Shown here: positions 3,132 through 18,488 of the stretch, piece by piece | Numbering within the stretch: the stretch's first letter is position 1 | Layout: each line of letters starts with the position of its first letter | Assembly: GCA_003218375.1 (NCBI GenBank) | Contig: QHNH01000012.1 | Location: 124,001-188,000, forward strand | From: Verrucomicrobiota bacterium | Lineage (GTDB): Bacteria; Verrucomicrobiota; Verrucomicrobiia; Chthoniobacterales; UBA10450 | Direction: 5' to 3' | Length of the DNA stretch: 64,000 nucleotides | Program-made: the position numbers and the translations under genes | The notes under the pieces: model-generated | Told to the model about the DNA's origin: nothing | Databases searched by the model: none | The model's input: the letters and a program-made list of their open reading frames with translations, nothing else

Positions 3132-4307
3132 TTACGCCGCCGCGGTCGCGACATGCTTCGTGTGTAGGCGCTTCAACATCACGATGCAGGCGATCGCTAT
3201 CACGATGAGAGCGATTCCCAACAGCGGCCGATAGACTATCCAGGCCACCGCGATCACCAGCAACGACACGATCGCAGAAAGGAAGAACGAGACAATGGCG
3301 AACCCCAGTTCGACGAGGGAGCCGAGGAACGGAAGGATGCGAGCCATCGCCGAGATCGGCCCGAGGACAAGCATGCCGGCAAAGAACATAGCCGCAAAAC
3401 CCACCACCCGGAGGATCCAGGTCAGGGTGCGATTCGCTGCCTGCGCATGGGCGAACATTTGCGCGGCCGAGATGTTGCCGGTTTCCACCAGCTCGATCTC
3501 GCGCTCATTCGTAGTCAGATAAGGCGTGAAGCTTTGTTTCGTCTGCGCCGCTACCACACTCAAGGTTCCCGGCCGCAGCACGCCAAAGGAAATCTTCTCG
3601 TCCCCGATCTCCGGGTTGCCTGGATCCGTGCCCAGGTAATACTGATTCCCATCGATCTTGAGCTTCGACCGAAACTTCTCCAAGACCTGGGAGAGCTGGT
3701 CGTTCGTGGCTTCCAACGTTTCGTCGCCGCTAACCTTCCCGATGATTTGCGGAGTCAACCGGAACTGACCGAGCGTGGCATCGGTGGCCACGAACTCTTT
3801 CTTCGGAATTTCGACCCGCGCGGGGTTTTGATGGTCTTCCGCGCTTTTGAACGAGCTGCTCTTGATAAGATCGGGCGACCAAACTTTCTCGTAGCTATAA
3901 GTCGTGGTCGTTTCCTTGCCGCCACCGATTTTATCGCGCGATTTGGATTCCTTCTTCTCCTTCCAAACGTAGACCTCGATGTTGCGCCTGAGCCGCAGAG
4001 CCTTTTCCGAAACGTTGAAAATGGGATCCTGAAGCGGGTCGGTTACCGAAGTCTCGCCCGTGACGTGGATGAGTTTGGACTCGTTCGCCGAATCGACGTT
4101 GTCCGCCGGCACATCAATCACGGTGGCCGCGCCTTCCCGCAGACTCTTGGCCGTGGCGACAGCGCGTCCTTCATTCCAAAAAAGCAGAATGATCGAGCCG
4201 ATGAGCAGGAGAAAACCGAAGAGCATTCCGACAATCGAGTTGCCGATCCGCCCGAAGATCGACTGGTTAGTAAGTTCTGTAATTACGTTCGCCATAGTCG
4301 ACGCCAT
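3132..4307 (-). CDS. TMEM43 family membrane protein
   Basis: A 391-residue polytopic protein. It has one N-terminal membrane helix (about residues 25-46, ending in LLFWNEGRA), a large extramembrane region of about 230 residues, then three or four closely packed helices from about 290 to 380. The N-terminal helix followed by WNEGRAV and repeated Leu-Arg-Glu-Gly elements matches the TMEM43/LUMA family, known from animal inner nuclear membranes and found sporadically in bacteria. Bacterial function is unestablished; a role in membrane organisation is family inference only. The gene is divergent from the GlxA-type regulator, with about 135 bp between. An in-frame ATG at 4295 is an alternative start. 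Confidence 0.8.
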   Translation of the reverse strand: MASTMANVITELTNQSIFGRIGNSIVGMLFGFLLLIGSIILLFWNEGRAVATAKSLREGAATVIDVPADNVDSANESKLIHVTGETSVTDPLQDPIFNVSEKALRLRRNIEVYVWKEKKESKSRDKIGGGKETTTTYSYEKVWSPDLIKSSSFKSAEDHQNPARVEIPKKEFVATDATLGQFRLTPQIIGKVSGDETLEATNDQLSQVLEKFRSKLKIDGNQYYLGTDPGNPEIGDEKISFGVLRPGTLSVVAAQTKQSFTPYLTTNEREIELVETGNISAAQMFAHAQAANRTLTWILRVVGFAAMFFAGMLVLGPISAMARILPFLGSLVELGFAIVSFFLSAIVSLLVIAVAWIVYRPLLGIALIVIAIACIVMLKRLHTKHVATAAA

Positions 4308-4442: not shown

Positions 4443-5480
4443 ATGCGACCACTCCGTGTGGGGTTGATAGGATACGATGGCGTCCAGGGTTTGGATCTCG
4501 TCGGGCCTTCCGATGCGTTTACGATTGCGGCCATCCACGGTAACAACGGGACGCCGGAACGATGTTACGAAGTCACCATTATCGGTCTGACCGGTAAACC
4601 ATTTCGCGCGGAATCGGGCTTGCTCTTTCAGCCCCACGCCACTTTGCGCAATGCTTCTGCGCTCGACACGCTCGTCATTCCCGGAGGCAGAGGCGCGCGG
4701 ATCGGTCCTGCGAGTGCGACGATCGCGCGTTGGATTTCGGATCGTGCGCCGAAAATTCGCCGCATCGCTTCGGTCTGCACAGGGATCTATGCGCTCGCGC
4801 CGACGGGTCTTCTCGACGGCCGCACCGTAACGACTCATTGGCGGTTCGCCCAGGATGTGGCCCGCCGTTTCCCGAAGCTCAACGTAGATCATGACGCGCT
4901 CTTTGTGAAAGATGGATCGTTTTTCACCGCCGGTGGGATTACGGCGAGCGTGGACCTCGCCCTGGCACTCATCGAGGAAGACTTCGGACCGCGCGTCGCG
5001 GTCGCGGTCGCGCGGGAGCTGGTCGTGTATCTGAAACGACCCGGCGGGCAGAAGCAATATTCCGAGCCGCTGCAGTTTCAGTGCGATTCGTCCGATCGCT
5101 TCGCCGATCTCGCTTCCTGGATGCTGGGACATTTACGGGCCGATCTTTCGCTCGAGACCCTGGCACGGCGGGCCTGCCTTTCGCCGCGCCATTTCGCCCG
5201 GCGATTCAAGCAAACTTTCGGCGGAACCCCCGCGGCCTTTGTGGAAAATCTCCGACTCGATGACGCGCGCCGGCGACTGACCGAGCGCACTCAAACCATC
5301 GAAAGCGTCGCGGCCGCGGTCGGGTTCCAGAGCGACGATGCTTTTCGGCGCGCGTTTCAGCGGCGCTTCGGCGTGAAGCCAAGCAGTTACCGGAATCGGT
5401 TCGACGCGCGTGCGAACTCTTCGCAAAACGGAAAAGCTATCCGCAAGCGACCGAAGCAACCGGCTCGCGGGAAGAAGTAG
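4443..5480 (+). CDS. GlxA family transcriptional regulator (DJ-1/PfpI domain plus AraC HTH)
   Basis: A 345-residue regulator. Residues about 1-190 form a DJ-1/PfpI amidase-like sensor domain (RVGLIGYDGVQGLDLVGPSD near the start; IASVCTGIYALAPTGLLDG with the nucleophile-position Cys). The C-terminal 110 residues carry an AraC-type double helix-turn-helix (LETLARRACLSPRHFARRFK, then IESVAAAVGFQSDDAFRRAF and FGVKPSSYR). The start at 4443 is where the conserved fold begins; the open frame extends further upstream without protein-like sequence. It heads a same-strand run through 8994 in which another gene (6879-8012) also encodes a DJ-1/PfpI domain, so it probably regulates that run. The ligand is unknown. 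Confidence 0.92.
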   Translation: MRPLRVGLIGYDGVQGLDLVGPSDAFTIAAIHGNNGTPERCYEVTIIGLTGKPFRAESGLLFQPHATLRNASALDTLVIPGGRGARIGPASATIARWISDRAPKIRRIASVCTGIYALAPTGLLDGRTVTTHWRFAQDVARRFPKLNVDHDALFVKDGSFFTAGGITASVDLALALIEEDFGPRVAVAVARELVVYLKRPGGQKQYSEPLQFQCDSSDRFADLASWMLGHLRADLSLETLARRACLSPRHFARRFKQTFGGTPAAFVENLRLDDARRRLTERTQTIESVAAAVGFQSDDAFRRAFQRRFGVKPSSYRNRFDARANSSQNGKAIRKRPKQPARGKK

Positions 5481-5489
5481 GACGACAAC

Positions 5490-6854
5490 ATGAAAAGATA
5501 CCTAACGATAGCTCTCTTAGCGTCACTAGCTATACTTAGCCCGGCGACGGAACCAGTGTTGAAAATCTACATGTGTCCGGAGTGCGGCTGCGAAAGTGAC
5601 GCTATCGTCTTCGACAAGCCGGGCAATTGTCCGAGCAGTGGAATGGCTCTGGTCGAAGCAAAAGACCGGCATGAAGGTGAAATGCGCGCGATGCGACCAG
5701 TCACCACCTTTCATTTTCCGGATGGAAAACGGTCGGTCACGTTTCCATTCGAGCTCATAGCCAACGGGATTTATTTGTCGATGCACGTCAACGGAAAGGG
5801 GCCTTTCTCTTTCGAGCTCGACACCGGTTCTTTCAATTCCATCGTTGCTTCGGAGCTGGCGGCCGAGATGGGAATCCAGACCAGCGGAACAACTACAGGC
5901 GCTGGCGCCGGCTCAGGATCGTTTGTCGCGGGAAAGATCAAAGAACTTAAGTTCGAGTTCCCCGAGGGAGTCACTGCCTCTACCCGAGCCGGAACAAGCG
6001 TCTCGATGGCGGGGCTCTGGCCCTTGATCGCTCGTCGCGTCTACGGCGATGTCGGGCACGACATTATCCAGAATTTCGTGGTGGAGATCGATTACGAAAA
6101 GAAGCTGCTTACTTTGCATGATCCGGCAACCTACCATTATGCCGGAAAGGCCCAGGCGATCCCGTTTACTCTGTGGGGGAGCTATGATCTGCAGATCGAT
6201 GGCGAGCTCATGGTTAACGGAGAACCGCCGATTCCAGTGAAGTTCACCCTGGATACGGGCGCCGGCGGCACCGCGGTGACGACTCACATCGTAGAAGCGC
6301 ATCACTTGAAGGATAAGGTCGGCAAAGTCCTGCCTGCCTTCGATAACGGAGCCGGAGGAGGAGAAGCGAAGCTTGTCATGGCGCGTCTGGCCGCCGTCCG
6401 CATCGGGCCTTACCGCATCAACCAACCTCTGGCGGCGTTGACGAGCGACACCCAGGGATCGTTTGCGAGCAAGACTCTGGGAGTCAATCTTGGCGCTAAC
6501 ATCCTCAAGCGCTTCACTGTCATCATCGATTACTTGCACAAGCAATTGATTCTGGAGCCGAACGCGCATTTGAAAGATCCATTTAAGGCCGATGGGAGCG
6601 GTTTGGTCCTTAAAGCAGGCGATGACAACTTCAGGGTCTTCACCGTTCGCGCTCTCGTCCCGGACTCACCTGCTACCGAAGCCGGTATTCAGCCAGGCGA
6701 TCGCCTTACCGCGATCGATGGGGAACTGCTTGATCAGTATGCACTCTGGCAGGTGCAAGAGCTCCTGCAAAAGGACGGGACGACTTGCCAGCTTTCACTC
6801 GAGCGCGGAGACAAGAGACTAACCGCCGCGCTGAAGCTTCGATCGCTTTTGTAG
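5490..6854 (+). CDS. Secreted retropepsin-like aspartyl protease with Cys-rich N-terminus and PDZ domain
   Basis: A 454-residue exported protein. A signal peptide (1-20) is followed by a short Cys-rich module (YMCPECGCESDAIVFDKPG, then CPSSGM) resembling a heavy-metal-binding zinc ribbon. Two clan AA aspartyl-protease halves come next: FELDTGSFNSIV (catalytic Asp near 111) and KFTLDTGAGGTAV (near 250). A C-terminal PDZ domain contains SPATEAGIQPGDRLTAIDGE. Such proteins are periplasmic or surface proteases of the PDZ-aspartyl type. Compared with the next gene's copy of the Cys module, the last Cys is replaced by Ser (CPSS versus CPRC), so this copy may not bind metal fully. It starts 9 bp after the regulator and lies 24 bp before the PfpI gene, so probably one operon. 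Confidence 0.82.
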   Translation: MKRYLTIALLASLAILSPATEPVLKIYMCPECGCESDAIVFDKPGNCPSSGMALVEAKDRHEGEMRAMRPVTTFHFPDGKRSVTFPFELIANGIYLSMHVNGKGPFSFELDTGSFNSIVASELAAEMGIQTSGTTTGAGAGSGSFVAGKIKELKFEFPEGVTASTRAGTSVSMAGLWPLIARRVYGDVGHDIIQNFVVEIDYEKKLLTLHDPATYHYAGKAQAIPFTLWGSYDLQIDGELMVNGEPPIPVKFTLDTGAGGTAVTTHIVEAHHLKDKVGKVLPAFDNGAGGGEAKLVMARLAAVRIGPYRINQPLAALTSDTQGSFASKTLGVNLGANILKRFTVIIDYLHKQLILEPNAHLKDPFKADGSGLVLKAGDDNFRVFTVRALVPDSPATEAGIQPGDRLTAIDGELLDQYALWQVQELLQKDGTTCQLSLERGDKRLTAALKLRSLL

Positions 6855-6878
6855 CTAATGAAATAACATCACATCCAA

Positions 6879-8012
6879 ATGAAAAGATTAACTATCTTCG
6901 CTCTTCTAAGTGCGCTCTTTTCGGCGCTTACTCTCACGGCTACGCCCACGCCATCAAAACGCGTCTTTGTCTGCCCCGAATGCGGGCAGGAATGTGACAA
7001 ACTTGTCTTCGACAAACCTGGCGCGTGCCCCCGCTGCGGGATGACGCTAGTCGAGAAAGTCGATAACAAGGAGAAGCGGATCAGCGTAGCTGTGCTCTTG
7101 TTCGATGGCGCGGAAGTTATCGATTACTCCGGGCCATGGGAAGTCTTTGGCGAAGCAGGCTTCAAGGTTTATGGCGTCGCAGAAAAACGCGAGCCGATTC
7201 ATGCCAGCTTCGGGCAGAAGATCATGCCCGACTATACCTTCGCCGATAGTCCGCCGGCTGACATTCTCCTTGTCCCCGGCGGGAGTGTAAGCCAGGCGCT
7301 GGAAAATCCACAACTGATCAAGTGGGTGCAAACGAACGCGCAAGCTTCGACCCATGTCATGTCCGTGTGCACCGGCGCGTTCATTTTGTCGAAAGCCGGT
7401 TTACTCGACGGTTTGAGTGCTACGACGATTCAACACGCGATCGACAAGCTCCAAAAGGTTTCGCCCAAGACCAGGGTAGTCCACGACCAAAGATACGTCG
7501 ATAACGGCAAGATCATCACCACCGCTGGGCTTTCCTCCGGGATCGATGGAGCCTTCCACCTCGTCGCTAGAATTAACGGCGAAGGCGAAGCTCAGGCCAT
7601 CGCCTTGAACATGGAATACCGGTGGGACCCTCATTCGAAGTATGCTCGCGCTGCCTTGGCGGATCGATACTTGCCGGACTTTTCCGATCTGAAGGACGTG
7701 AAGGGAAAGATACTTTCGACCGATGGCGATCTGGATCACTGGGAAGTCAAAGCGCTGGTCTCGGAACCAAACTCGATCGAAGCGATTGCCGATCTTCTTA
7801 ACCACCAGATTACTTCGAACACGCCTTACGCAAAGGGAGCCATAACAGTGAGCCTCGCCGGGGCGAACAACTCCGCGATCAATTGGAAATTCACCGATGA
7901 GGAAGGACGCGGCTGGAACGGAGAGGGAAAGATAGATTCCGCTCCAGATCATCCAGGGCAATTTGTCGTCACACTGAAACTTGCGCGGCAACCGACTGCC
8001 AAAAGCACATGA
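6879..8012 (+). CDS. Secreted DJ-1/PfpI family protein with Cys4 zinc-ribbon-like N-terminus
   Basis: A 377-residue protein with a signal peptide (1-21), a CPEC...CPRC four-Cys module (about 27-60) and a DJ-1/PfpI domain (about 66-250; SVCTGAFILSKAGLLDG holds the conserved nucleophile Cys with the preceding VPGG loop). The remaining 120 residues are unassigned. DJ-1/PfpI proteins include glutamine amidotransferase-like hydrolases, glyoxalases and chaperones; export of one is uncommon. The Cys module is nearly the same as in the preceding protease, sharing VFDKPG...CP..GM..VE, so the two probably act together or on the same metal or substrate. Its stop overlaps the next start (ATGA at 8009). 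Confidence 0.85.
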   Translation: MKRLTIFALLSALFSALTLTATPTPSKRVFVCPECGQECDKLVFDKPGACPRCGMTLVEKVDNKEKRISVAVLLFDGAEVIDYSGPWEVFGEAGFKVYGVAEKREPIHASFGQKIMPDYTFADSPPADILLVPGGSVSQALENPQLIKWVQTNAQASTHVMSVCTGAFILSKAGLLDGLSATTIQHAIDKLQKVSPKTRVVHDQRYVDNGKIITTAGLSSGIDGAFHLVARINGEGEAQAIALNMEYRWDPHSKYARAALADRYLPDFSDLKDVKGKILSTDGDLDHWEVKALVSEPNSIEAIADLLNHQITSNTPYAKGAITVSLAGANNSAINWKFTDEEGRGWNGEGKIDSAPDHPGQFVVTLKLARQPTAKST

Positions 8013-8488
8013 ACAAGGTCCTTTCACTGTGCGTCGTGTTCTTGGGAAATGCCGCGATGTTCGCGCAAGAGACAACGATGGATGAAAGCGCGGCCATCAA
8101 GAAAACCGCGCTCAATTACATCGAAGGTTGGTACACCGGCGATGCGGCGCGGATGGAGCGTGCGCTTCATCCCGAGTTGGCAAAGCGAATGATTTCAACC
8201 GATCCGAAGACTGGCCGCAGCCAATTCAATCACATGGGAGCGATGACGCTGGTGCAGCGGACGCGGGATGGCGGCGGAACAAAGACGCCCGCTGATCGAC
8301 AATTGAAAGAGGTCACCATTCTCGATCGATTCAATAACGCGGCCGTGGTCAAGATCGTCGCGTCTGACTGGATCGATTACCTTGAAGTCGCGAAGTTCAA
8401 TGGTGATTGGAAGATCATCAATGTGCTTTGGGAGTTGAAACCGAAGGCTGCGTCCGTGGAGTCAAATGCGCCTGCGCAAAAACCATGA
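8009..8488 (+). CDS. NTF2-like / putative lumazine-binding family exported protein
   Basis: A 159-residue protein with a signal peptide (cleavage expected after AMFA) and an NTF2-like cone fold. ALNYIEGWYTGDAARMERALHPE (split here: ALNYIEGWYTGDAARM, then ERALHPE) is the hallmark of the putative lumazine-binding group, and the strand VVKIVASDWIDYLEV lies near the C-terminus. Members are small-ligand-binding or accessory proteins with no fixed reaction. ATGA overlaps on both sides couple it to the PfpI gene and the DoxX gene. The C-terminal tail after ELKPKA is short and polar. Confidence 0.82.
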   Translation: MNKVLSLCVVFLGNAAMFAQETTMDESAAIKKTALNYIEGWYTGDAARMERALHPELAKRMISTDPKTGRSQFNHMGAMTLVQRTRDGGGTKTPADRQLKEVTILDRFNNAAVVKIVASDWIDYLEVAKFNGDWKIINVLWELKPKAASVESNAPAQKP

Positions 8489-8994
8489 CTGCTCCGGACG
8501 AGACGGCCGGTAGGAGCGCGTCGAATTCGTTTCAATCCACTTCTCGCGCTTTGCTCGCATTTCTGCGGATTTATCTTGGCGTCATCCTATTCATCACGGT
8601 CCTGGGCAAGCTCACGCGTGATACTCCCTTCGCGACGGAAATGCTCGGCTTTCTTAATGGTGTGGTGCGGCGCGGAGCGCTGTCATGGTACACTGAGTTC
8701 GTCCAACAAGTCGTCATCCCGCACGCGACCCTCTTCAGTTACCTCGTCATGACCGGCGAGCTCTTCGCCGCGATCTCACTCCTCACCGGAACGGTCACCC
8801 GACTTGGCGCCCTCGTCGCGATGTCGCTTTTCCTAAACTACATGCTGGCCAAAGCCCGGATGTTTTGGTCCCCCGACAGCGAAGACGCCGCCGTCTTTTT
8901 CATAGCCCTCGTCGTCTGTCTCGCCCGCGCCGGGCGCGTCTGGGGAGTCGATGCGTTCCTTGCCAGACGCTGGCCGCGAGCGTGGCTCTGGTAG
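8485..8994 (+). CDS. DoxX family membrane protein
   Basis: A 169-residue integral membrane protein with four predicted helices (around residues 22-42, 77-100, 103-125 and 135-152). The DoxX-type signature includes RIYLGVILFITVLGKL in the first helix and TGELFAAISLLTGTVTRLGAL in the third. DoxX/TQO-small-subunit relatives sit in the cytoplasmic membrane and are linked to quinone or redox functions in several bacteria. The start at 8485 overlaps the previous stop (ATGA); the longer open frame upstream lies inside the previous gene. It is the last gene of the regulator-led run and converges with the M48 gene. Confidence 0.85.
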   Translation: MTAPDETAGRSASNSFQSTSRALLAFLRIYLGVILFITVLGKLTRDTPFATEMLGFLNGVVRRGALSWYTEFVQQVVIPHATLFSYLVMTGELFAAISLLTGTVTRLGALVAMSLFLNYMLAKARMFWSPDSEDAAVFFIALVVCLARAGRVWGVDAFLARRWPRAWLW

Positions 8995-9000
8995 GAATCG

Positions 9001-10992
9001 TTAGGCCTGCACAAACGGCGGGATCGGGCAATCGAGAGCGTCGGCGATGGCGCGGAGGAGTTCGGCTTCGCGCGGTTGGATGACGTTGTCGAAGGCGACG
9101 GTCTCGGCGCAGGCGGTGAGGACGTTCTTTTTTATTTGCGAGACCGATTGAGCGAAGCGGTCCAGGGCGGCGTCGAGATGGGTGAGGTCGCACTCGGAAG
9201 GCGGGAGCCATGGGATTTCGGCCCGGGCTATTCGGCCTAACGACTCGGCGCCCTGGGCAAAGGCGGCTCGTGCCTGGGTAGGATCGTCGGCGCCGGCATA
9301 GGCGGTGGCGGACAGGAGAATCCCGGCGTCGCGGGCGAGGGGATGCAGGTCGTAGAACTGGGTGACCGGCCGGCGCTCGGGATAGAAGCGGGTGTCCAGG
9401 TGACGCATCACGATTTTTTGCAGCATGAACTCGAAAAGATCGGTCTCCTTGTCGCTGACGATGAGCGCGTTCACCGCGCCGCGAAACTGCTCGAACTGGG
9501 AAGGCGAAAGCCGGCGCAGCGCGGGCAGGGCGAGATCGACGAGCGGGATTCGCGCGTGCGGCGGGATACCTTGCACCGCGGGCCAGATACGAGTCGTTTC
9601 CTGCCGGACCGCTTCGGAAGTAGCGCGGCCCAGTTCTTCGAGCTGTTTCTCACGCGCCGCTGCATCTGCGGCCAGGAGGAAAGCGCAGACAAGGGCATGA
9701 GCGCCTAACGGATCGTGGGCGGCAGTTTGGATCGACGGCGAAACAGCCTGGTGAAGATCGACAGCATACTGAAGGTGTGCGGTCCGCGGCTGGCCGATAT
9801 CGGCAATGATGGTTTGTTGCGCGACTGTTTCAGGAGCAACCGGCAACGGCGGAGGACGAACTATCGGTAACGGCGGAGGTTTGGCCGTTGGAAGCGGAGG
9901 CGGCGGCGGTTGCGCGTGCGATGGAGGTGGCGGAGGCGGTTGAACGAGAGGCGAAACGCCAGGCAAAGGCGGCGGGGGAGTTTCCGCGGGAGCGTCGGGC
10001 AACACGACCCGCGGGAAATTTCCATCGAAGCTTGGATCCAAGGCGCGGATGCGCTCGATCAACGGGGGATGGGTCGCGAACCCGAACAATTCGCTCTTCA
10101 AACCATTGGCGAAAAAAAAGTGGCTCACTTCTTCGGCACGATGCGATTGCAACGCGGAACCTTCACTGATACCGCCAATCTTTTTCAGGGCGCCGGCGAG
10201 TCCCGAAGGATTACGCGTGAACTGGACGGCCGATGCGTCGGCGAGAAATTCGCGCTGCCGACTCACCGCGGCCTGAATCAGGCGGCCGAACAAAACGCCG
10301 ACCCAGCCGATGATGATCAGGGCCAGTCCTAGGAGGAGGAACGGCCACGCGTTCTTTCCGCGGGCGCGAACGAGGATGCGGCCAATGACGGTGAGGCAAA
10401 GGATGCCGAAGATGAGACCCATCAGGCGCAGGTTGAGTTTCATGTCGCCGTTGAGCAGGTGGCTGAACTCGTGCGCGATCACGCCTTGCAGCTCGTCGCG
10501 GTTAAGCATGGTCATGGCTCCGCGCGTGACGCTGATGGCGGCGTCGCTGGCGGAATGGCCGGCGGCGAATGCGTTGATGCCGGCTTCGCCATCCATGACG
10601 TAGACTTGCGGGACCGGCACGCCGGAGGCGATCGCCATTTCTTCAACCACGTTCAGTAGCTTGCGCTCATGGGCGTCGGTGGAATTCGGGTTGACGAGGC
10701 GGCCGTCCAGGAGCTCGGCGACCGCGCGGCCGCCACGCGCGAGCGAGAGGGTCTTGAAGAAACTCCCAGCGGAAATAATGCCGAGCGTGCCCGCGGTGGT
10801 GGCGAGAAACATTTTGGCGTGCGACCAGGAGACTGTCGTCTCCTCTGTAGCATTCTTTAATTCGATCCCGCCGAAAATGAGCGCGACGACGAAGTAAACC
10901 GCGCCGATGAGGAGCGCGACGGCGACCACGAAATAAACGACGAGAAGGGTAGTGTGGCGTCGGGCTTTATCCTGACGCTCGAAGAAGTCCAC
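9001..10992 (-). CDS. M48 family metallopeptidase with Pro-rich linker and C-terminal extension
   Basis: A 663-residue membrane zinc protease. Two membrane helices lie near residues 17-42 and 62-80. The M48 catalytic HEFSH (H174, E175, H178) is in VIAHEFSHLLNGD, with further helices at about 188-240 and a downstream conserved RQREFLADASAV whose E is the third zinc ligand candidate. From about residue 345 a very Pro-rich linker of about 50 residues leads to a unique C-terminal region of about 270 residues, making the protein about twice the length of HtpX. HtpX-like enzymes degrade misfolded membrane proteins. LemA is encoded directly upstream (25 bp), a pairing common in bacteria, so they form one transcription unit. 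Confidence 0.9.
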   Translation of the reverse strand: MDFFERQDKARRHTTLLVVYFVVAVALLIGAVYFVVALIFGGIELKNATEETTVSWSHAKMFLATTAGTLGIISAGSFFKTLSLARGGRAVAELLDGRLVNPNSTDAHERKLLNVVEEMAIASGVPVPQVYVMDGEAGINAFAAGHSASDAAISVTRGAMTMLNRDELQGVIAHEFSHLLNGDMKLNLRLMGLIFGILCLTVIGRILVRARGKNAWPFLLLGLALIIIGWVGVLFGRLIQAAVSRQREFLADASAVQFTRNPSGLAGALKKIGGISEGSALQSHRAEEVSHFFFANGLKSELFGFATHPPLIERIRALDPSFDGNFPRVVLPDAPAETPPPPLPGVSPLVQPPPPPPSHAQPPPPPLPTAKPPPLPIVRPPPLPVAPETVAQQTIIADIGQPRTAHLQYAVDLHQAVSPSIQTAAHDPLGAHALVCAFLLAADAAAREKQLEELGRATSEAVRQETTRIWPAVQGIPPHARIPLVDLALPALRRLSPSQFEQFRGAVNALIVSDKETDLFEFMLQKIVMRHLDTRFYPERRPVTQFYDLHPLARDAGILLSATAYAGADDPTQARAAFAQGAESLGRIARAEIPWLPPSECDLTHLDAALDRFAQSVSQIKKNVLTACAETVAFDNVIQPREAELLRAIADALDCPIPPFVQA

Positions 10993-12215: not shown

Positions 12216-13734
12216 TTAAGGTGTAACGGGCGGCAAACTCTTTAGAATGTCGTCGATCGATTCGCCGTTGTGGATGACGCCGTCGTTCACATAGAGCTGA
12301 TTGCGCATCGCTTTCGCCGCTTCCCGCGATAGCATCCAACCGAGCGGCAAAGGCACCTCGGTCTCGCGCAGCCCAAAGTAAAGGATGTCCGGAGTGTCGG
12401 AAGGTATTTCCGCTTCGCCGGCCTTGAAGCGACGTTGCTCGCGAGCGATGGCTTTTTGGGCGTAGACGCCCCTGGCGTCGCGGGCGTTGAGCAACGCATA
12501 AAGCCAAGCTGTCAGATCGCCCAGGAATTCGCCCTCGGTCGTGACCGGGGCAGAACGTTCGGGCTGCGACGGGGATGGCGCAGGTCCCGCCTTCGCGGGA
12601 GAAATCACACTGGAACCCTTTCGCGGGTCATTGCTAATCATGATCACCTTCACATCGACATTATTCCATTGCTTCACGCGGCAAACATCCCGGATCCGAG
12701 TAATGATCTCTAACGCTGTCGTAGCACCAGAATTCTCGAAGAAACCACCATCAACTACGTGCGAGCCATCCGGGAAGCGGGCCGGCTGGAAAAAAGGGGG
12801 ATGTGCGAAAACTCATATTAACAGCGGTGCTCAGTGGTATGTTGCAGGCGGCCTTGGTTGCAGGCAGCTTATACCCGGCGAGCCTGTCGGCGGCGTCTTC
12901 CGCATCGAGAAAAATCGTAGTGAGCCGGAGATTGGTGGTGATGATGCGTTTACCTTTCTCGACGGAGCTGCCATTGAGAAACAGGGATGGCATCCATTCG
13001 CGCGAGCCGCCTTTCCAGAGATCGACGAAGGAAGCAGCGAACCGGTCATTTTTCATCGTGTTCCGCCAGCCTTTCTCCCAACCCAGTTCGAGAGCACGCG
13101 CTCGATCGAAGTGAGGAACAGGAAAGGGAAGGAACCGCTGGATGAAATCCGGATACAGCATGGAAGCTAAAGCGGGAGAAAATAAATCCTGGCCGAGGAT
13201 ATCGTCCGCCTTGCTCTTGAAGTTAAAAGACGATGGATTCGGTTCGGCTAAAAGCGCATCAAAAACGACGGCGCCCAGGCTGCCACCCGAGACGCCGCTG
13301 ATCGCGAAAAGATGTGAGGCGAAATTAGCGTTCCGATCCTGGAGCTCGCCGAGAACGGTTGCCGTCCAATAAGCAGCGCGAATTCCACTACCTTCTGTAG
13401 CGACGACAAACACCGTGTGAGGCACGCCCGCACCCTCGGTCTTTTCCGCGAGCGCGTACCAACGAGAGAAGGATTGGACAACATCGAGCCGGCTCCCCTC
13501 CTGCGGTGGCACAGTCCTGATGATGTGGTTATCGTTCAAAGGACTAACCAGACAGGCCTCGATGATCAGAATCGTGATAACAGGGAATTGCCAGCGGCCG
13601 CCGAGATAGACTAACAAGCTACCCGCACTTACCCATGAGGCCGCCGCGAGAAAGAGGATCGTTCCCATACCGAGCCATTGCGGAAGGGAGACCGGATCGA
13701 TCGCGCAGTCGACAAAGAGCAACAGCGAAACCAA
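12216..13734 (-). pseudogene. Broken patatin-like phospholipase (copy A, lipase part)
   Basis: Homologous over its whole length to the C-terminal two-thirds of the intact TM-patatin at 15594-17690. It starts in the same frame as the TIR-TM gene (13744-15024), separated from it by one TGA (13744-13746). Two membrane helices precede the lipase. The nucleophile motif GVSGGSLGA is intact. The oxyanion loop reads EGSGIRAAYW where copy B has EGGGIRAAYW. Near 12785 an extra C shifts the frame just after FFPAG; the frame is open to 12751 only. The other frame continues as RFPDGSHVVDGGFFENSG, including the catalytic Asp, and runs to 12216. Either a recent pseudogene or a sequencing error in a C-run. 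Confidence 0.8.
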
Positions 13735-13743
13735 GCATGTTAC

Positions 13744-15024
13744 TCAGCCGATAGAGGCTAACTCGATCATCCGACCTCGATCAAGTTGCCCCAAACTTTC
13801 CAATTCGCGGGCTGGCATCTTTCCCACCCATCGTCGCCGCAGAATTAGAAGTCCGTAAAAGACGATCGCCAGCACCAGGCAAACAAGCGCAAACAGCCGC
13901 AGCCAGAATATTACCGGTGACGACGAGTCATAAGCTCGCGCTGCCCCGAGAAACCCCAAGCCGATAACGAGAAACGGCGCCACACCTAGTAACCGTGGCA
14001 GCAAGGATTGGAGAGCATCAATGGTAGCGTCCCACGAAGCTGTGCTCGGCAGGCGGCGCCGGACCCCTGGAAAATCAAAGTAAAACAGCGCCCTTGCGCT
14101 ATACCAATTGCAAATCCCCCACAGCACTAGAGCGGCGAAAAATCCAAAAACCCTGGGCGCATACCATTGATCGCCCGCGTTGCCTTCGGCTACTACGCGT
14201 AATACTTCAACGCCTTGTCCCAGATACAAGAAAAAGAACGATCCGATGGCAATCGAGAGAAGACCCAAGCGGCAAGACTTGAATTCATCCCACAACTCGA
14301 TTGCCCGCCACCAAACAGTCTGCAAGAATGATCTTTGCCGCCGAGGGGACGTTCCCAATGGGTCGGGCCTCAACAACGCCGGAACGAAGACCCTCGCGGG
14401 AGTCACAGGTTTGATCGTGCCGACTTCAGGTTCTTCGCGAGAAGGGGGGGGCGTGTGTGCGCCTTTCAATGGTCCTTTTTTTTGACGGCGTTTTGAGGCT
14501 GGCTCCGGCGCAGGAGTCGGCATCGAAGGCGAAGGGACCGGCGACATATCCTGCCCGGTAGCTTCAGCAGGCCCGGCCGAGCTGAGCGCAGCCTCGATGG
14601 CCTTGGTGACCTGGACCCAGACTTCATCGCGTTCCGCGCGGGTCCTTAGTTTACCGAGCGGTCGCGAGGGATCGTTGACCGTTTGAATTTCGCTTAAATT
14701 CGAGTTGCTGAAATCGACAGGCTGCAGCACCACCGACAAGAGGACAGCTTCGTCCCTGGCGGCGGCTTCCAGGAGCGGTGGTAATTCGTTTTTGTGAATG
14801 AAGTCCGAAGCAAAGAAGTCTGCCGAGATCAAGAGGACCGCTACCCGAGCGCTTTCGACCGCCGTCTTTATTTCCTCACGCCACTTTGAACCCGCTGTAA
14901 GGCGAGTATCGTCCCACCAATCGACGCGGCCATCGCGTTCCAACGGCTTCAGGAAGACGCGGAGTCGATCGAGAAATCTTCGGTCAGCGTGACTGTAGCT
15001 GATGAAAACCTTGGTTCGAGCCAT
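13744..15024 (-). CDS. TIR domain protein fused to polytopic membrane region (copy A)
   Basis: A 426-residue protein. Residues 1-150 are a bacterial TIR domain: KVFISYSHADRRFLDRL, VDWWDDTRLTAGSKW, VAVLLISADFFAS and HKNELPPLL, whose Glu80 sits where NADase TIRs have their catalytic Glu. A polar Pro/Lys-rich linker (about 165-235) follows, then four membrane helices (about 265-400) homologous to the N-terminal helices of the TM-patatin at 15594-17690. The frame stops at a TGA, after which the homology continues in the same frame through the patatin part. Thus the ancestral product was probably a single TIR-TM-patatin chain. The start MARTKVF aligns exactly with the free TIR gene upstream. TIR domains hydrolyse NAD or make cyclic ADP-ribose signals; which applies is not visible. 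Confidence 0.85.
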   Translation of the reverse strand: MARTKVFISYSHADRRFLDRLRVFLKPLERDGRVDWWDDTRLTAGSKWREEIKTAVESARVAVLLISADFFASDFIHKNELPPLLEAAARDEAVLLSVVLQPVDFSNSNLSEIQTVNDPSRPLGKLRTRAERDEVWVQVTKAIEAALSSAGPAEATGQDMSPVPSPSMPTPAPEPASKRRQKKGPLKGAHTPPPSREEPEVGTIKPVTPARVFVPALLRPDPLGTSPRRQRSFLQTVWWRAIELWDEFKSCRLGLLSIAIGSFFFLYLGQGVEVLRVVAEGNAGDQWYAPRVFGFFAALVLWGICNWYSARALFYFDFPGVRRRLPSTASWDATIDALQSLLPRLLGVAPFLVIGLGFLGAARAYDSSSPVIFWLRLFALVCLVLAIVFYGLLILRRRWVGKMPARELESLGQLDRGRMIELASIG

Positions 15025-15089
15025 AGCTAGCGGAGAGGTCCCGAGCGCATGATCAGCGGAACGGAATGGGGTTCGGCTGCGTGTCCACT

Positions 15090-15578
15090 TTAGGTTGCGC
15101 CAGATTCTTGTGGTCCCGTTGTCCGACTCGGCGCCTGAAGGGCGGTCTCGATCGCCTGTGTGAGCTTTAACCAAACTTCATCGCGCCCCGCGGTGGTTCT
15201 TAGCTTTCCGAGCGGTCGCGCGGGATCGTTAATGGCTTGAAATTCGCCGAGTGGCGATCCGCTGAGATTCACGGGCTGCAAGATCACTGACAACAGGACG
15301 GCGTCGTCCTGGCCGGCGGCTTCGAGTAAGGGCGGCAATTCGTTGGTGTGAATGAACTCGGAAGCAAAAAAATCTGCCGAAATCAAAAGGACCGCCACTC
15401 TGGCGTTGGCGACTGCCTGCTTTATCTCTTCGCGCCAGTTTGAACCAGGCTGGAGACGGGTATCGTCCCACCAGTCGACGAGACCCTTGCGTTCAAGTGG
15501 CCTGAGAAAAACATGGAGGCGATCGAGGAGTCGCCGGTCAGCGTGGCTGTAACTGATAAAAACTTTCGTGCGCGCCAT
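15090..15578 (-). CDS. Stand-alone TIR domain protein (copy B)
   Basis: A 162-residue protein that is essentially one TIR domain, aligned end to end with residues 1-160 of the neighbouring TIR-TM fusion: KVFISYSHADRRLLDRLHVF, VDWWDDTRLQPGSNW, LLISADFFASEF, HTNELPPLLEAA. The putative catalytic Glu is residue 80. It starts 15 bp after the TM-patatin stop, so the two are probably one operon (patatin first, TIR second). The ATG was fixed by alignment with the paralogue's MARTKVF. Bacterial TIR proteins often act in anti-phage or abortive responses by NAD consumption or nucleotide signalling; that role is inference here. Confidence 0.9.
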   Translation of the reverse strand: MARTKVFISYSHADRRLLDRLHVFLRPLERKGLVDWWDDTRLQPGSNWREEIKQAVANARVAVLLISADFFASEFIHTNELPPLLEAAGQDDAVLLSVILQPVNLSGSPLGEFQAINDPARPLGKLRTTAGRDEVWLKLTQAIETALQAPSRTTGPQESGAT

Positions 15579-15593
15579 ATTGCGTTGCTAAAA

Positions 15594-17690
15594 CTATCTT
15601 GGGGGTCCTAGAAGAGACCTCCGCACTTCGTCCATGCCTTCGCCGTTCTTGATGTTGCCTTCGTTCTTGTAGAGTTGCGAGGTCATCGTCTTTGCAGCCT
15701 CGCGCGAAAGCATCCAGCCCAACGGCAAAGGCACGTCCATGTCGAGAAGGCCGAAATAGACAATGTCTTTTGTGTCTGAAGGCAGGCGGTCCGGCTCGTC
15801 AGCCTTAAAGGGACGTTGCTCGCGGCGAATCGCCTTCTGGGCATAGACGCCGCGCGCGTCGCGAGTGTTGAGCAACGCATACACCGGCGCCATCACATCG
15901 CCGAGGAACGCTCCGCGATCGGTCACTGGCTCCGTTCGACCGGGCGCGTTCGACTCAGGGCCGGGCTTGGCAGGAGCGATCGAGAGCGATGGCTTGCGCG
16001 GATCGTTACTGATCATGATGACTTTCACATCGACGTTGCGAATGCCCTCGTGGTCACACCAATCGTCGATGCGCTGGACGATCTCCAAGGCCGTGATGGC
16101 GCCGGAGTTTTCGAAATAACCGCCGTCCACGACGTGGGTGCCGCCACGGAAACGGCCGGCCGGACTTACGTAGGTGAACCGGGCGCTCATGTCGGCGGCG
16201 GTGCTGAGCGGAATGTTGCAGGTCGCCTTCGTTGCGGGAAGCTTGCCGGAGGCGAGGGTGTCGGCAGCGTCTTCGGCATCGAGGAACACGTTAGTCAGGC
16301 GCAGGTTGGTCGTAATGATGCGGTGGCCTTTCTCGACGGAAGTGCCGTTAAGAAAAAGCGCCGGCATCCATTCCCGCACGCCGGGTTTCCAAAGCTCGAC
16401 GAACGAGCCGGCTAGCCGGTTGTTTCCCATGACTTGTTCCCATCCTCGCTCCCAGCCCAGCTCGAGCGCGCGGCCGCGATCGAAGTAAGCGACCGGAAAG
16501 GGGAGAAAGCGCTGGATGAAATCGGGGTAGAGCATCGAGCCGAGGGCAGGAGAAAGGAAGTCCTGGCCGAGGATCGCGTCCGCCTTTTCCCTAAGCTTGC
16601 CATTCGCTGTGGGCTCGGCCAGCAACGCATTGAAAACGACGGCGCCCAGGCTGCCGCCCGATACTCCGCTGATGGCGAAGAGATGCGAAGCAAAACCCGG
16701 ATTCTTGTCTTGCAACTCGCCGAGCACCGTCGCTGTCCAGTACGCGGCGCGAATTCCGCCACCCTCGGTCGCGACAACATAAAGCGGATGGACGACTCCG
16801 GCGCCGTCATTCTTCTCGGCGAAGTCGTACCATTGTCTAAATGATTTGATAACGTCGGGACGATCGCCGTCCTCGCGCGCAACGGTCCGGATGATATGGT
16901 TGTCGTTCAACGGGCTTACGAGGCACGCTTCCACGACCAGGACTGTAATCACTGGGAATTGCCAGCGGCCGCTCAGGTAAACGAGAAAGCTTCCCACGCT
17001 GACCCAGCAGGCAGCCGCGAGAAACAGGATCGTGCCCATCCCGAGCCATTGCGGAATAGTCACTGGATTGATGGCGAAAACGATGAAGAGAATCAACGAC
17101 GCCAGTAACATGATGATGACGGCTCTGATCGTCGCCGGTCCCAGATCTCTGATGCGTTTGACATGCTGTGCGGACCCGACCCATCGGCGGCGCAAAATGA
17201 GGAGCACATAAAATACGATCGCCAGAACGACGCAAAGTCCGGCGAGGAGGTGCATCAAGAACTTCGCCGGCGAGCTGCTGGCGTACGGCGCAGCCGCGAC
17301 GATGAAACCCCAGCCCACGATCAACATGGGTGCGATGCCGAGCAGCCGAGGGACATGCGTCTCGGCCCATTTCGAATAGGAACCGCCGCGCGCCGCATTC
17401 GGAAAATCGACGTAAAGAAGGACGCGCGCCGCGTACCAACTGCAAGTCGCCCAGATCACAAGGGTGGCGAAAAATCCGCAGACGCGTGGCCCGTAGGAAT
17501 ACCCGAGGGTCATGCCTTCACCTACGGTGCGCAGGATCTCAGTGCCTTGCGCGACAGAAAGGAAAACCAGACAGGTCAGGAGTGCGACGATGAAACTGAA
17601 GCGGCACGGCTTCAGTTCGCGGTAAAGGTCGCGAATAATCCACCAGAGGCGTTGCAGCCAGGTGCCGGAGTGAGTGTCGGAATTATTCAT
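15594..17690 (-). CDS. Polytopic membrane protein with C-terminal patatin-like phospholipase (copy B)
   Basis: A 698-residue protein. About seven membrane helices occupy residues 30-260, then a patatin-like lipase domain (about 295-690). Catalytic elements are complete: oxyanion loop EGGGIRAAYW (about 309-318), nucleophile GVSGGS with Ser344, and catalytic Asp522 in HVVDGGYFENSG. Patatins hydrolyse acyl esters of membrane lipids, and several bacterial defence systems use them as membrane-attacking effectors. Here the enzyme is built into the membrane. The TIR gene follows by 15 bp. The start MNNSDTHSG was preferred over an upstream in-frame ATG at 17987 because that extension is not protein-like and overlaps the divergent gene's promoter region. 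Confidence 0.88.
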   Translation of the reverse strand: MNNSDTHSGTWLQRLWWIIRDLYRELKPCRFSFIVALLTCLVFLSVAQGTEILRTVGEGMTLGYSYGPRVCGFFATLVIWATCSWYAARVLLYVDFPNAARGGSYSKWAETHVPRLLGIAPMLIVGWGFIVAAAPYASSSPAKFLMHLLAGLCVVLAIVFYVLLILRRRWVGSAQHVKRIRDLGPATIRAVIIMLLASLILFIVFAINPVTIPQWLGMGTILFLAAACWVSVGSFLVYLSGRWQFPVITVLVVEACLVSPLNDNHIIRTVAREDGDRPDVIKSFRQWYDFAEKNDGAGVVHPLYVVATEGGGIRAAYWTATVLGELQDKNPGFASHLFAISGVSGGSLGAVVFNALLAEPTANGKLREKADAILGQDFLSPALGSMLYPDFIQRFLPFPVAYFDRGRALELGWERGWEQVMGNNRLAGSFVELWKPGVREWMPALFLNGTSVEKGHRIITTNLRLTNVFLDAEDAADTLASGKLPATKATCNIPLSTAADMSARFTYVSPAGRFRGGTHVVDGGYFENSGAITALEIVQRIDDWCDHEGIRNVDVKVIMISNDPRKPSLSIAPAKPGPESNAPGRTEPVTDRGAFLGDVMAPVYALLNTRDARGVYAQKAIRREQRPFKADEPDRLPSDTKDIVYFGLLDMDVPLPLGWMLSREAAKTMTSQLYKNEGNIKNGEGMDEVRRSLLGPPR

Positions 17691-17822
17691 AGGGACAGGG
17701 TAGGGTTGGATGGTGTTGGGAGACGGGAGGATTCCGGTGGCGGACTGGCTGAGCCTGCACAGTTTGGAATCGGTTTGTAAAGAGCATTGTTGCGGGAGCG
17801 ACGCCGAGGTAGATTCCGATTC

Positions 17823-18488
17823 ATGCGGGACCTGCCGGCCATTACCGAGATTGAACGTCTCCCTTCTCCCGCTCCCACCCCGCAAGCGCTCACTTGGCAC
17901 CGGGGCGAACTCTGGTTTGGTTCGCGTGATCTCCAGCGCGTCTATCGAATGGACCGCAAAAACTGGAAGGTAGCCGAGGAGAGGCAAGCGCCGGGGACGC
18001 CGTGGGCCGCGGTGTCCACCAGTGATTCCCTTTGGTTCACCCTGGGCGAAGGCGACGAGGACGATCGCTATTTGCGGCGATACATTGCCGGGAAAGGATT
18101 TTCCGAGTCGGACCGGATCGCGTGCCCGGAGTTTACGGGATCTTACCTAAGCTATGACGGCAAGCACCTCTACCTCAGCCAATGGTATAAACATAGGATC
18201 CTGAAGCTCGATGCCGCGGGAAATATTTTACTCGAGATCGCGGTTGGAGCCGAGATCAGCGGCCACGTGTTTGTCGATGGGGTGATCTACGTCTTGCGAG
18301 GGACGGAGCAAAACGGAGGCGACTGGCGTCTGGCCCGTCTCGATCCGCGGGAAGCGGCGCCTGCTATCGAAGAGCTCGCGCGAGTGCCCTTTCAATGCCG
18401 GTCGCTCGCGTTCGATGGCGAACGGTTGTGGTCGAACCATCGCGACGCGGATCGGATTGTCTGTTTTGCGATTCCGAAGGAGCACTAG
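17823..18488 (+). CDS. Beta-propeller-like protein of unknown function
   Basis: A 221-residue protein with repeated short beta-blade-like segments (ALTWHRGELWFGSRDLQRVY, HLYLSQWYKHRILKLDAAGN, SLAFDGERLWSNHRDADRI). The pattern of W/Y-G, D-x-x-G-N turns resembles NHL, SMP-30 or glutamine cyclotransferase-like propellers, but is too short to assign. No signal peptide is seen. It ends 3 bp before the DHFR-like gene, with which it is probably co-transcribed. It is divergent from the TM-patatin gene. Confidence 0.65.
   Translation: MRDLPAITEIERLPSPAPTPQALTWHRGELWFGSRDLQRVYRMDRKNWKVAEERQAPGTPWAAVSTSDSLWFTLGEGDEDDRYLRRYIAGKGFSESDRIACPEFTGSYLSYDGKHLYLSQWYKHRILKLDAAGNILLEIAVGAEISGHVFVDGVIYVLRGTEQNGGDWRLARLDPREAAPAIEELARVPFQCRSLAFDGERLWSNHRDADRIVCFAIPKEH

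Follow-up and report, generated by a model that had tools for sequence, protein, structure and literature searches.

Exported DJ-1/PfpI proteins joined to metal-type modules, and a putative GlxA-led operon in a soil Verrucomicrobiota bacterium

We analyzed a 64,000-nucleotide stretch of the genome of a soil Verrucomicrobiota bacterium ("the window", to which all coordinates refer). Five genes at 4443-8994 encode a GlxA-type regulator, an aspartyl protease (AspP), a DJ-1/PfpI protein, an NTF2-like protein and a DoxX membrane protein. AspP and the DJ-1/PfpI protein are predicted to be exported (here and below, "exported" refers to signal-peptide-like N-termini judged by eye), and both begin with an HMBD module. 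Relatives of the DJ-1/PfpI protein in other bacteria carry a different metal module, YHS, at the C-terminus. Judged from alignments and a tree, the two metal modules have been joined separately to one type of enzyme, and that exported DJ-1 enzymes have acquired metal modules more than once is the new point of this work. Together, the genes in this soil bacterium and the YHS-bearing relatives suggest metal-responsive DJ-1 enzymes at the cell surface, with copper as one possible metal. We tentatively favor the view that the window encodes a metal-responsive extracytoplasmic DJ-1 enzyme controlled by the GlxA-type regulator.

The exported DJ-1/PfpI protein resembles isocyanide hydratases. It matched PF01965 (1.9e-27) and has a nucleophile-elbow cysteine, Cys164, in the motif SVCTGA. 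The closest solved structures were isocyanide hydratases, both by sequence (3.9e-26) and by predicted fold (1.1e-17), and in the alignment Asp82, Cys164 and Thr165 were the equivalents of isocyanide hydratase Asp17, Cys101 and Thr102. The roles of Asp17 and Cys101 are described in PMC10971408. In an alignment of 82 proteins, the Asp was present in 78 rows (with four gaps) and the Cys in 81 (with one gap). The predicted model had a mean pLDDT (predicted local distance difference test score) of 79, with most of the core above 95 and the HMBD module between 50 and 70.

The last 123 residues of this protein form a domain of their own. No Pfam or PHROG family matched them, and we found them in just three relatives: G047, the closest full-length relative (44% identity over residues 66-377), and two fragments, G031 and G010. 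Among 387 genomes of the phylum, the bacterium's own genome was the sole match. Plasmids yielded nothing beyond general DJ-1 and GlxA matches, all below 60% identity and none covering 80% of the query.

The N-terminal module shared by AspP and the DJ-1 protein is the Pfam family HMBD (PF19335), which rules out a novel domain. A first-pass annotation of the sequence had described a shared Cys-rich module, one copy of which had lost its last Cys, and both observations hold. Each copy was over the curated HMBD cut-off of 23.6 bits (32.0 and 28.5 bits for the modules alone), and both have the pattern CPECG...VFDKPG.CP..GM. In the AspP copy, the last Cys is replaced by Ser (CPSSGM, versus CPRCGM in the DJ-1 protein) and an additional Cys follows the first knuckle (CPECGC); both knuckles of the DJ-1 copy have the form CPxCG. 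The likeness of the two N-termini is not due to chance, because the N-terminal 66 residues of one exported protein found the other in a genome-wide search (E = 1.4e-12, 48% identity) and each module passes the HMBD cut-off.

The two HMBD copies look like the product of a local duplication, as judged by their similarity. Their pairwise score was 130, whereas neither scored above 87 with the 30 other HMBD-like modules of the fetched loci, and they share CPECG instead of CPMHP and a lengthened first half. The duplication would not be recent, because the coding DNA of the two N-termini is only 66.5% identical across aligned bases.

HMBD as a family is a common add-on, and the CPEC variant was found only in this genome. 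The bacterium has five HMBD matches over the cut-off. Apart from the two window copies, these are in open reading frames of 710, 419 and 203 amino acids and begin CPMH, CTMH or CVMH; the first half in most relatives is CPMH or CVMH. With a profile built from the two window modules, 60 of 98 related genomes had some match (best outside the bacterium's own genome, 3.3e-8), most covering only the PG.CP.CGM half. The HMBDs that we inspected in these relatives were mainly on adaptor-sized proteins, P-type-ATPase-sized proteins and lipoproteins. In the 387-genome sample, searched at 5e-7, the module was found in the bacterium's own genome and in one other (G445), where the match proved to be a CusB-type efflux adaptor with three HMBDs.

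Most of the closest-scoring relatives of the DJ-1 protein have a YHS domain. A collection of genomes from 84,980 species, scanned earlier with the window DJ-1 protein alone, gave no match; scanned with a 14-row alignment, it gave 328 relatives. All counts out of 80 given here refer to the 80 that scored best. By Pfam, 74 of the 80 have a C-terminal YHS domain (PF04945), a share that overstates that among the 328 because the query alignment was mostly YHS-bearing. A motif rule gave 66 of 80, and we prefer the Pfam count. HMBD was present in none of the 80, which rules it out as a typical feature of these exported DJ-1 proteins, and the window protein had no match to the YHS profile. The relatives without YHS include proteins on cut-off contigs (L196) and short proteins (L220, L223). 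The YHS Cys columns were kept in 74-77 of the 82 alignment rows.

These relatives span nine phyla: Verrucomicrobiota, Acidobacteriota, Pseudomonadota (Duganella, Massilia, Rugamonas, Pseudoduganella and Zoogloea), Planctomycetota, Myxococcota, Bacteroidota, Eremiobacterota, Eisenbacteria and Actinomycetota. Many are from metagenome-assembled genomes. A motif rule found a Tat (twin-arginine translocation)-like RR motif in 35 of the 80. Apart from those of Micromonospora, which apparently have no signal-like start, the others begin like lipoproteins or with an ordinary signal-like stretch. An N-terminal HMA domain that we suspected by eye in two DJ-1 proteins from Phycisphaerales (L201, L202) had no Pfam support.

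In a tree of 74 DJ-1 cores, the window protein paired with a protein that has no module (L105; support 100/96). This pair was beside a clade containing all the YHS rows and some module-free rows, an arrangement with weak support (98/53). The YHS rows required two changes on the tree, one of them due to the mislabeled row L200: labels came from simple motif rules, which called several GlxA rows "none" and did the same for L200, though Pfam finds YHS there. Because the window protein falls outside the YHS branch, we conclude that HMBD was joined separately from YHS.

Some DJ-1-YHS genes are next to genes for copper-type proteins. We surveyed by Pfam 147 neighboring proteins from 42 DJ-1 loci outside the close family. 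In two related Acidobacteriaceae (L184, L218), proteins with CusF and SCO1 domains are encoded directly downstream of DJ-1-YHS. An HMA-domain lipoprotein precedes the DJ-1-YHS gene in a Phycisphaerales genome (L202:7191-7789), and a CusF-YHS lipoprotein is encoded about 1 kb downstream of it in an Opitutaceae genome (L212:9773-10498); both were noticed by eye and then identified by Pfam. The commonest neighbors were response regulators (9 of 147) and AraC regulators (7 of 147). The link to metal that these copper-type neighbors provide is suggestive only. There is a precedent for a YHS domain as a metal switch: one report describes activation of an adenylyl cyclase by 1-10 uM copper through its C-terminal YHS domain (PMC4626032).

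In an alternative that we consider unlikely, the HMBD module would be a small structural zinc ribbon, or an interaction tag, that steadies the two N-termini or docks both proteins to one partner, with no sensing or gating. Two CPxCG knuckles are typical of structural zinc ribbons, and the DJ-1 copy has two, along with weak zinc-ribbon matches. The loss of one knuckle Cys from the AspP copy and the absence of the module from close relatives fit this explanation as well. However, HMBD was the only one of these metal families to score above its curated cut-off, and the separately joined YHS domain is a module for which copper-dependent regulation has been described (PMC4626032), which points to metal and not to mere structure.

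A role in thiol-redox chemistry or electrophile detoxification in the cell envelope seems improbable. In that case the Cys modules would serve as redox thiols and not bind metal, with quinones or aldehydes handled by DoxX and the DJ-1 enzyme. DoxX proteins are a membrane family linked to redox, and the DJ-1 fold here has a Cys of the reactive type. For the window DoxX, the best NCBIfam names, thiosulfate:quinone oxidoreductase and HvfX, scored far under their cut-offs. Against this, the modules match metal-binding families, and four DJ-1-YHS loci adjoin genes for copper-type proteins.

We infer that the five genes in the window form one operon under the GlxA-type regulator. The open reading frames and Pfam matches agree with the run first described from sequence, with the GlxA-type gene first and ATGA overlaps last, and all five genes are on the + strand (Table 1). 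Intergenic gaps of 9 and 24 nucleotides are followed by two ATGA overlaps, and the flanking genes on both sides are on the opposite strand. The gene at 3132-4307 is presumably TMEM43-like, and the one at 9001-10992 presumably encodes an M48 peptidase; both names were read from the sequence by eye. Promoter and terminator scans gave zero promoters and six terminators, not above shuffled sequence, and base composition across the block showed no abrupt shift. The regulator scored 238.8 bits against NCBIfam FtrA, under the cut-off of 425. AspP has two active-site motifs of the DTG/DSG type, ELDTGSF and TLDTGAG, and matched Pfam in two stretches.

Table 1. Features of the five-gene block, with positions in the window.
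Feature	Position	Strand	Evidence and remarks
GlxA-type regulator (DJ-1/PfpI domain and AraC helix-turn-helix, HTH)	4443..5480	+	Pfam HTH_18 4e-24, DJ-1_PfpI 1.5e-19
Predicted exported aspartyl protease (AspP), clan AA, PDZ, N-terminal HMBD	5490..6854	+	Asp_protease_2 8.2e-16 in two stretches, PDZ_6 1.2e-11, HMBD 3.3e-6
HMBD copy 1 (CPECGC...CPSSGM) in AspP	5568..5657	+	30.6 bits, above cut-off
Predicted exported DJ-1/PfpI protein; HMBD and DJ-1 core between a signal-like N-terminus and a C-terminal domain of its own	6879..8012	+	DJ-1_PfpI 1.9e-27, HMBD 4.4e-5
HMBD copy 2 (CPECGQEC...CPRCGM; two CPxCG knuckles) in DJ-1 protein	6966..7058	+	25.3 bits, above cut-off
DJ-1 core	7083..7565	+	Asp82 7122-7124, nucleophile Cys164 7368-7370, Thr165; isocyanide hydratase equivalents by alignment
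C-terminal domain of DJ-1 protein, no family match	7641..8009	+	Common to relatives G047, G031, G010
NTF2-like (Lumazine_bd_2) protein, signal-like N-terminus	8009..8488	+	Pfam 2.3e-18
DoxX membrane protein	8485..8994	+	Pfam 1.4e-9

GlxA genes recur beside genes for exported DJ-1 proteins in several phyla. A GlxA gene was within 1.5 kb of the DJ-1 gene in 30 of the 80 loci, and in one series (L146-L165) it adjoined the DJ-1-YHS gene in 20 of 20. In two loci (L116:7201-8248, L165:8895-9819), the GlxA gene beside DJ-1-YHS is broken into two or three frames, perhaps by decay or by sequencing errors in metagenome-assembled genomes. A different type of regulator seems to be coupled to the DJ-1-YHS gene in Duganella and Massilia (L174, L179; about 6000-8500, minus strand), where genes for a LytTR-type response regulator and a kinase-like protein are divergent to it and replace GlxA.

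Parts of the five-gene run are found together elsewhere. The NTF2-like gene was present in 5 of the 98 relatives and in 8 of 213 genomes of the order (three of the eight as fragments). GlxA was near it in all eight, either adjacent or, in G060 and G186, with one 615-amino-acid frame between. A DJ-1 gene was also present in seven of the eight; in the other, G176, the contig starts inside GlxA. DoxX follows in G026, G055, G060 and G186 (the last two are fragments), the DoxX of G176 is more distant (36%), and all four of the DJ-1, GlxA, NTF2-like and DoxX genes are together in G026 and G055. DoxX matched at 1e-15 in 7 of the 98 genomes, by GlxA or DJ-1 genes in five (the bacterium's own, G055, G010, G023 and G060) and without them in G005 and G007. 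In G010 (C163; L107:10467-11443), a GlxA gene 73% identical to that of the window continues, with overlap of the frames, into the second half of a DJ-1 gene of the window type, as though the two DJ-1 domains had been fused by a deletion (or by misassembly).

The arrangement of the window block is specific to its lineage, and its genes are found together elsewhere in different combinations. Of the eight genomes of the genus, five (the bacterium's own included) have the flanking M48 gene. At the four other sites, we found no match to GlxA, AspP, DJ-1 or NTF2 in the 11-14 kb fetched, and DoxX was found only in G005 (80% identical). Two congeners, G003 and G007, have at another site a GlxA gene (57-60% identical) whose neighbor is a Tat-like DJ-1 gene with no module. 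We conclude that the arrangement is lineage-specific because the four congener sites do not have the first four genes and GlxA/DJ-1 pairs occur elsewhere. In G005 (L233:5993-10990), the order DoxX-M48-LemA-OsmC is kept and the TMEM43-like gene is beside LemA, not upstream of GlxA. Because its position differs, the window region has been rearranged in addition to gaining or losing the block.

The same five genes were not found together in the 98 relatives. The best matches to AspP in these genomes were only 29-31% identical, and there was no HMBD on the AspP matches in the 29 loci read (L046-L074). The expectation that the five genes would be conserved together therefore survives in part: the set GlxA-DJ-1-NTF2-DoxX is seen elsewhere, but AspP is in none of the relatives' clusters and four congeners do not have the first four genes. 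The first-pass annotation had set its pathway against the picture of a general add-on with no conserved gene order, and half of that picture applies, since HMBD is a general add-on, yet gene order is partly conserved. That there is no common pathway, and that domain duplication and chance assembly account for the grouping of the protease, the DJ-1 enzyme and the NTF2-DoxX tail in a single lineage, is the least probable explanation: it accommodates the congener sites (one with DoxX), the location of AspP outside the cluster in 98 relatives, and NTF2-like proteins that are 78-84% identical between genomes whose neighboring regulators are about 40% identical, as if mosaic, but not the constant presence of GlxA near NTF2 in 213 genomes or the recurrence of GlxA beside exported DJ-1 in several phyla.

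In the metal-responsive DJ-1 enzyme system that we favor, the five genes would make up one operon led by the GlxA-type regulator, and the central product would be an extracytoplasmic DJ-1/PfpI enzyme of the isocyanide-hydratase-like subgroup, with a Cys nucleophile, an acidic partner and a Thr beside the Cys. It would belong to a set of exported DJ-1 proteins with a small thiol-rich transition-metal module, mostly YHS at the C-terminus and here HMBD at the N-terminus. The module would bind copper (or zinc) outside the cytoplasm, and the activity, folding or location of the enzyme would depend on the metal; we propose this gating by analogy with the copper-switched YHS adenylyl cyclase. The substrate may be a reactive small molecule that arises under metal or electrophile stress, and the regulator, whose own DJ-1 domain resembles the enzyme, may sense the same or a related compound. 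The NTF2-like and DoxX proteins would be accessory, and AspP would have acquired its module by local duplication and been recruited to the same place or metal. Of the pathway first suggested, the operon-like run, the metal-type module, the GlxA-DJ-1-NTF2-DoxX association and, through the YHS domains of relatives, the link to metal are supported, but the five genes do not stand as one conserved pathway.

Several results weigh against a metal-responsive DJ-1 enzyme. In the full proteins, the HMBD scores were barely over the cut-off (27.4 bits for AspP and 23.8 for the DJ-1 protein), and both window copies have CPEC in place of the usual C-x2-H. The versions in G047 and in the congeners G003 and G007 have no metal module, so the module is not essential to the DJ-1 enzyme. 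The column of Thr165 has Thr in 56 of 82 rows and Asn in 22. The active-site Asp and Cys are also present in the DJ-1 domain of GlxA regulators, and because these share them, the two residues do not prove isonitrile activity. Copper-type neighbors were found in 4 of 80 loci from three lineages, with no control set. To these we add the inflated YHS share described above and the absence of an AspP counterpart beside cluster genes in the 98 relatives.

A broader proposal is distinctly doubtful. In many phyla, an exported isocyanide-hydratase-like DJ-1 enzyme would be switched by copper through YHS or HMBD, often with a GlxA regulator in control whose DJ-1 sensor domain matches the enzyme, and its targets might be isonitriles that bind copper, or comparable reactive metal ligands, produced by neighbors. 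The DJ-1 superfamily is much studied, and the true substrates of its members are disputed. A widespread extracytoplasmic DJ-1 branch with built-in metal modules would be a tractable bacterial system for studying metal control of a DJ-1 enzyme. In the open-access papers searched (most subscription journals were outside the search), neither a DJ-1/PfpI-YHS nor a DJ-1/PfpI-HMBD fusion was mentioned, and among the papers listed for GlxA/DJ-1 and DoxX/DJ-1 none concerned this system.

Elsewhere in the window (12751-17987, minus strand), two adjacent long membrane proteins share a patatin-like stretch (GSGIRAAYWT and GGGIRAAYWT). One of the patatin-like copies seems to be split, with a TIR-like N-terminal part (VFISYSHADRRF) at 13744-15174. 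These names were given by eye.

The genes in the window combine features of several known systems. Isocyanide (isonitrile) hydratase InhA (PDB 3NON, 6NI5) was the best match to the DJ-1 protein among solved structures, in sequence and fold, with the three residue equivalents present; the window protein adds a signal-like N-terminus, a metal module, a C-terminal domain and a GlxA-led putative operon, and isonitrile hydration would be a candidate activity. Known HMBDs (PF19335), on efflux adaptors and P-type-ATPase-sized proteins, have the same PG.CP.CGM core, whereas the window copies have CPEC and not CPMH, are 4-5 residues longer, and are fused to a protease and a DJ-1 enzyme. The regulator has the DJ-1 domain and HTH layout of the GlxA family of AraC regulators and is under the cut-offs for the equivalogs FtrA and GbdR. 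AspP shares two DTG motifs and a PDZ domain with the retropepsin-like bacterial aspartyl proteases of clan AA, and its N-terminal HMBD was absent from the other such proteins inspected. The YHS adenylyl cyclase of Mycobacterium phlei (PMC4626032) is not a DJ-1 protein, and the window enzyme has HMBD and not YHS; in both, a small transition-metal module is attached to an enzyme, and the cyclase may serve as a model for gating.

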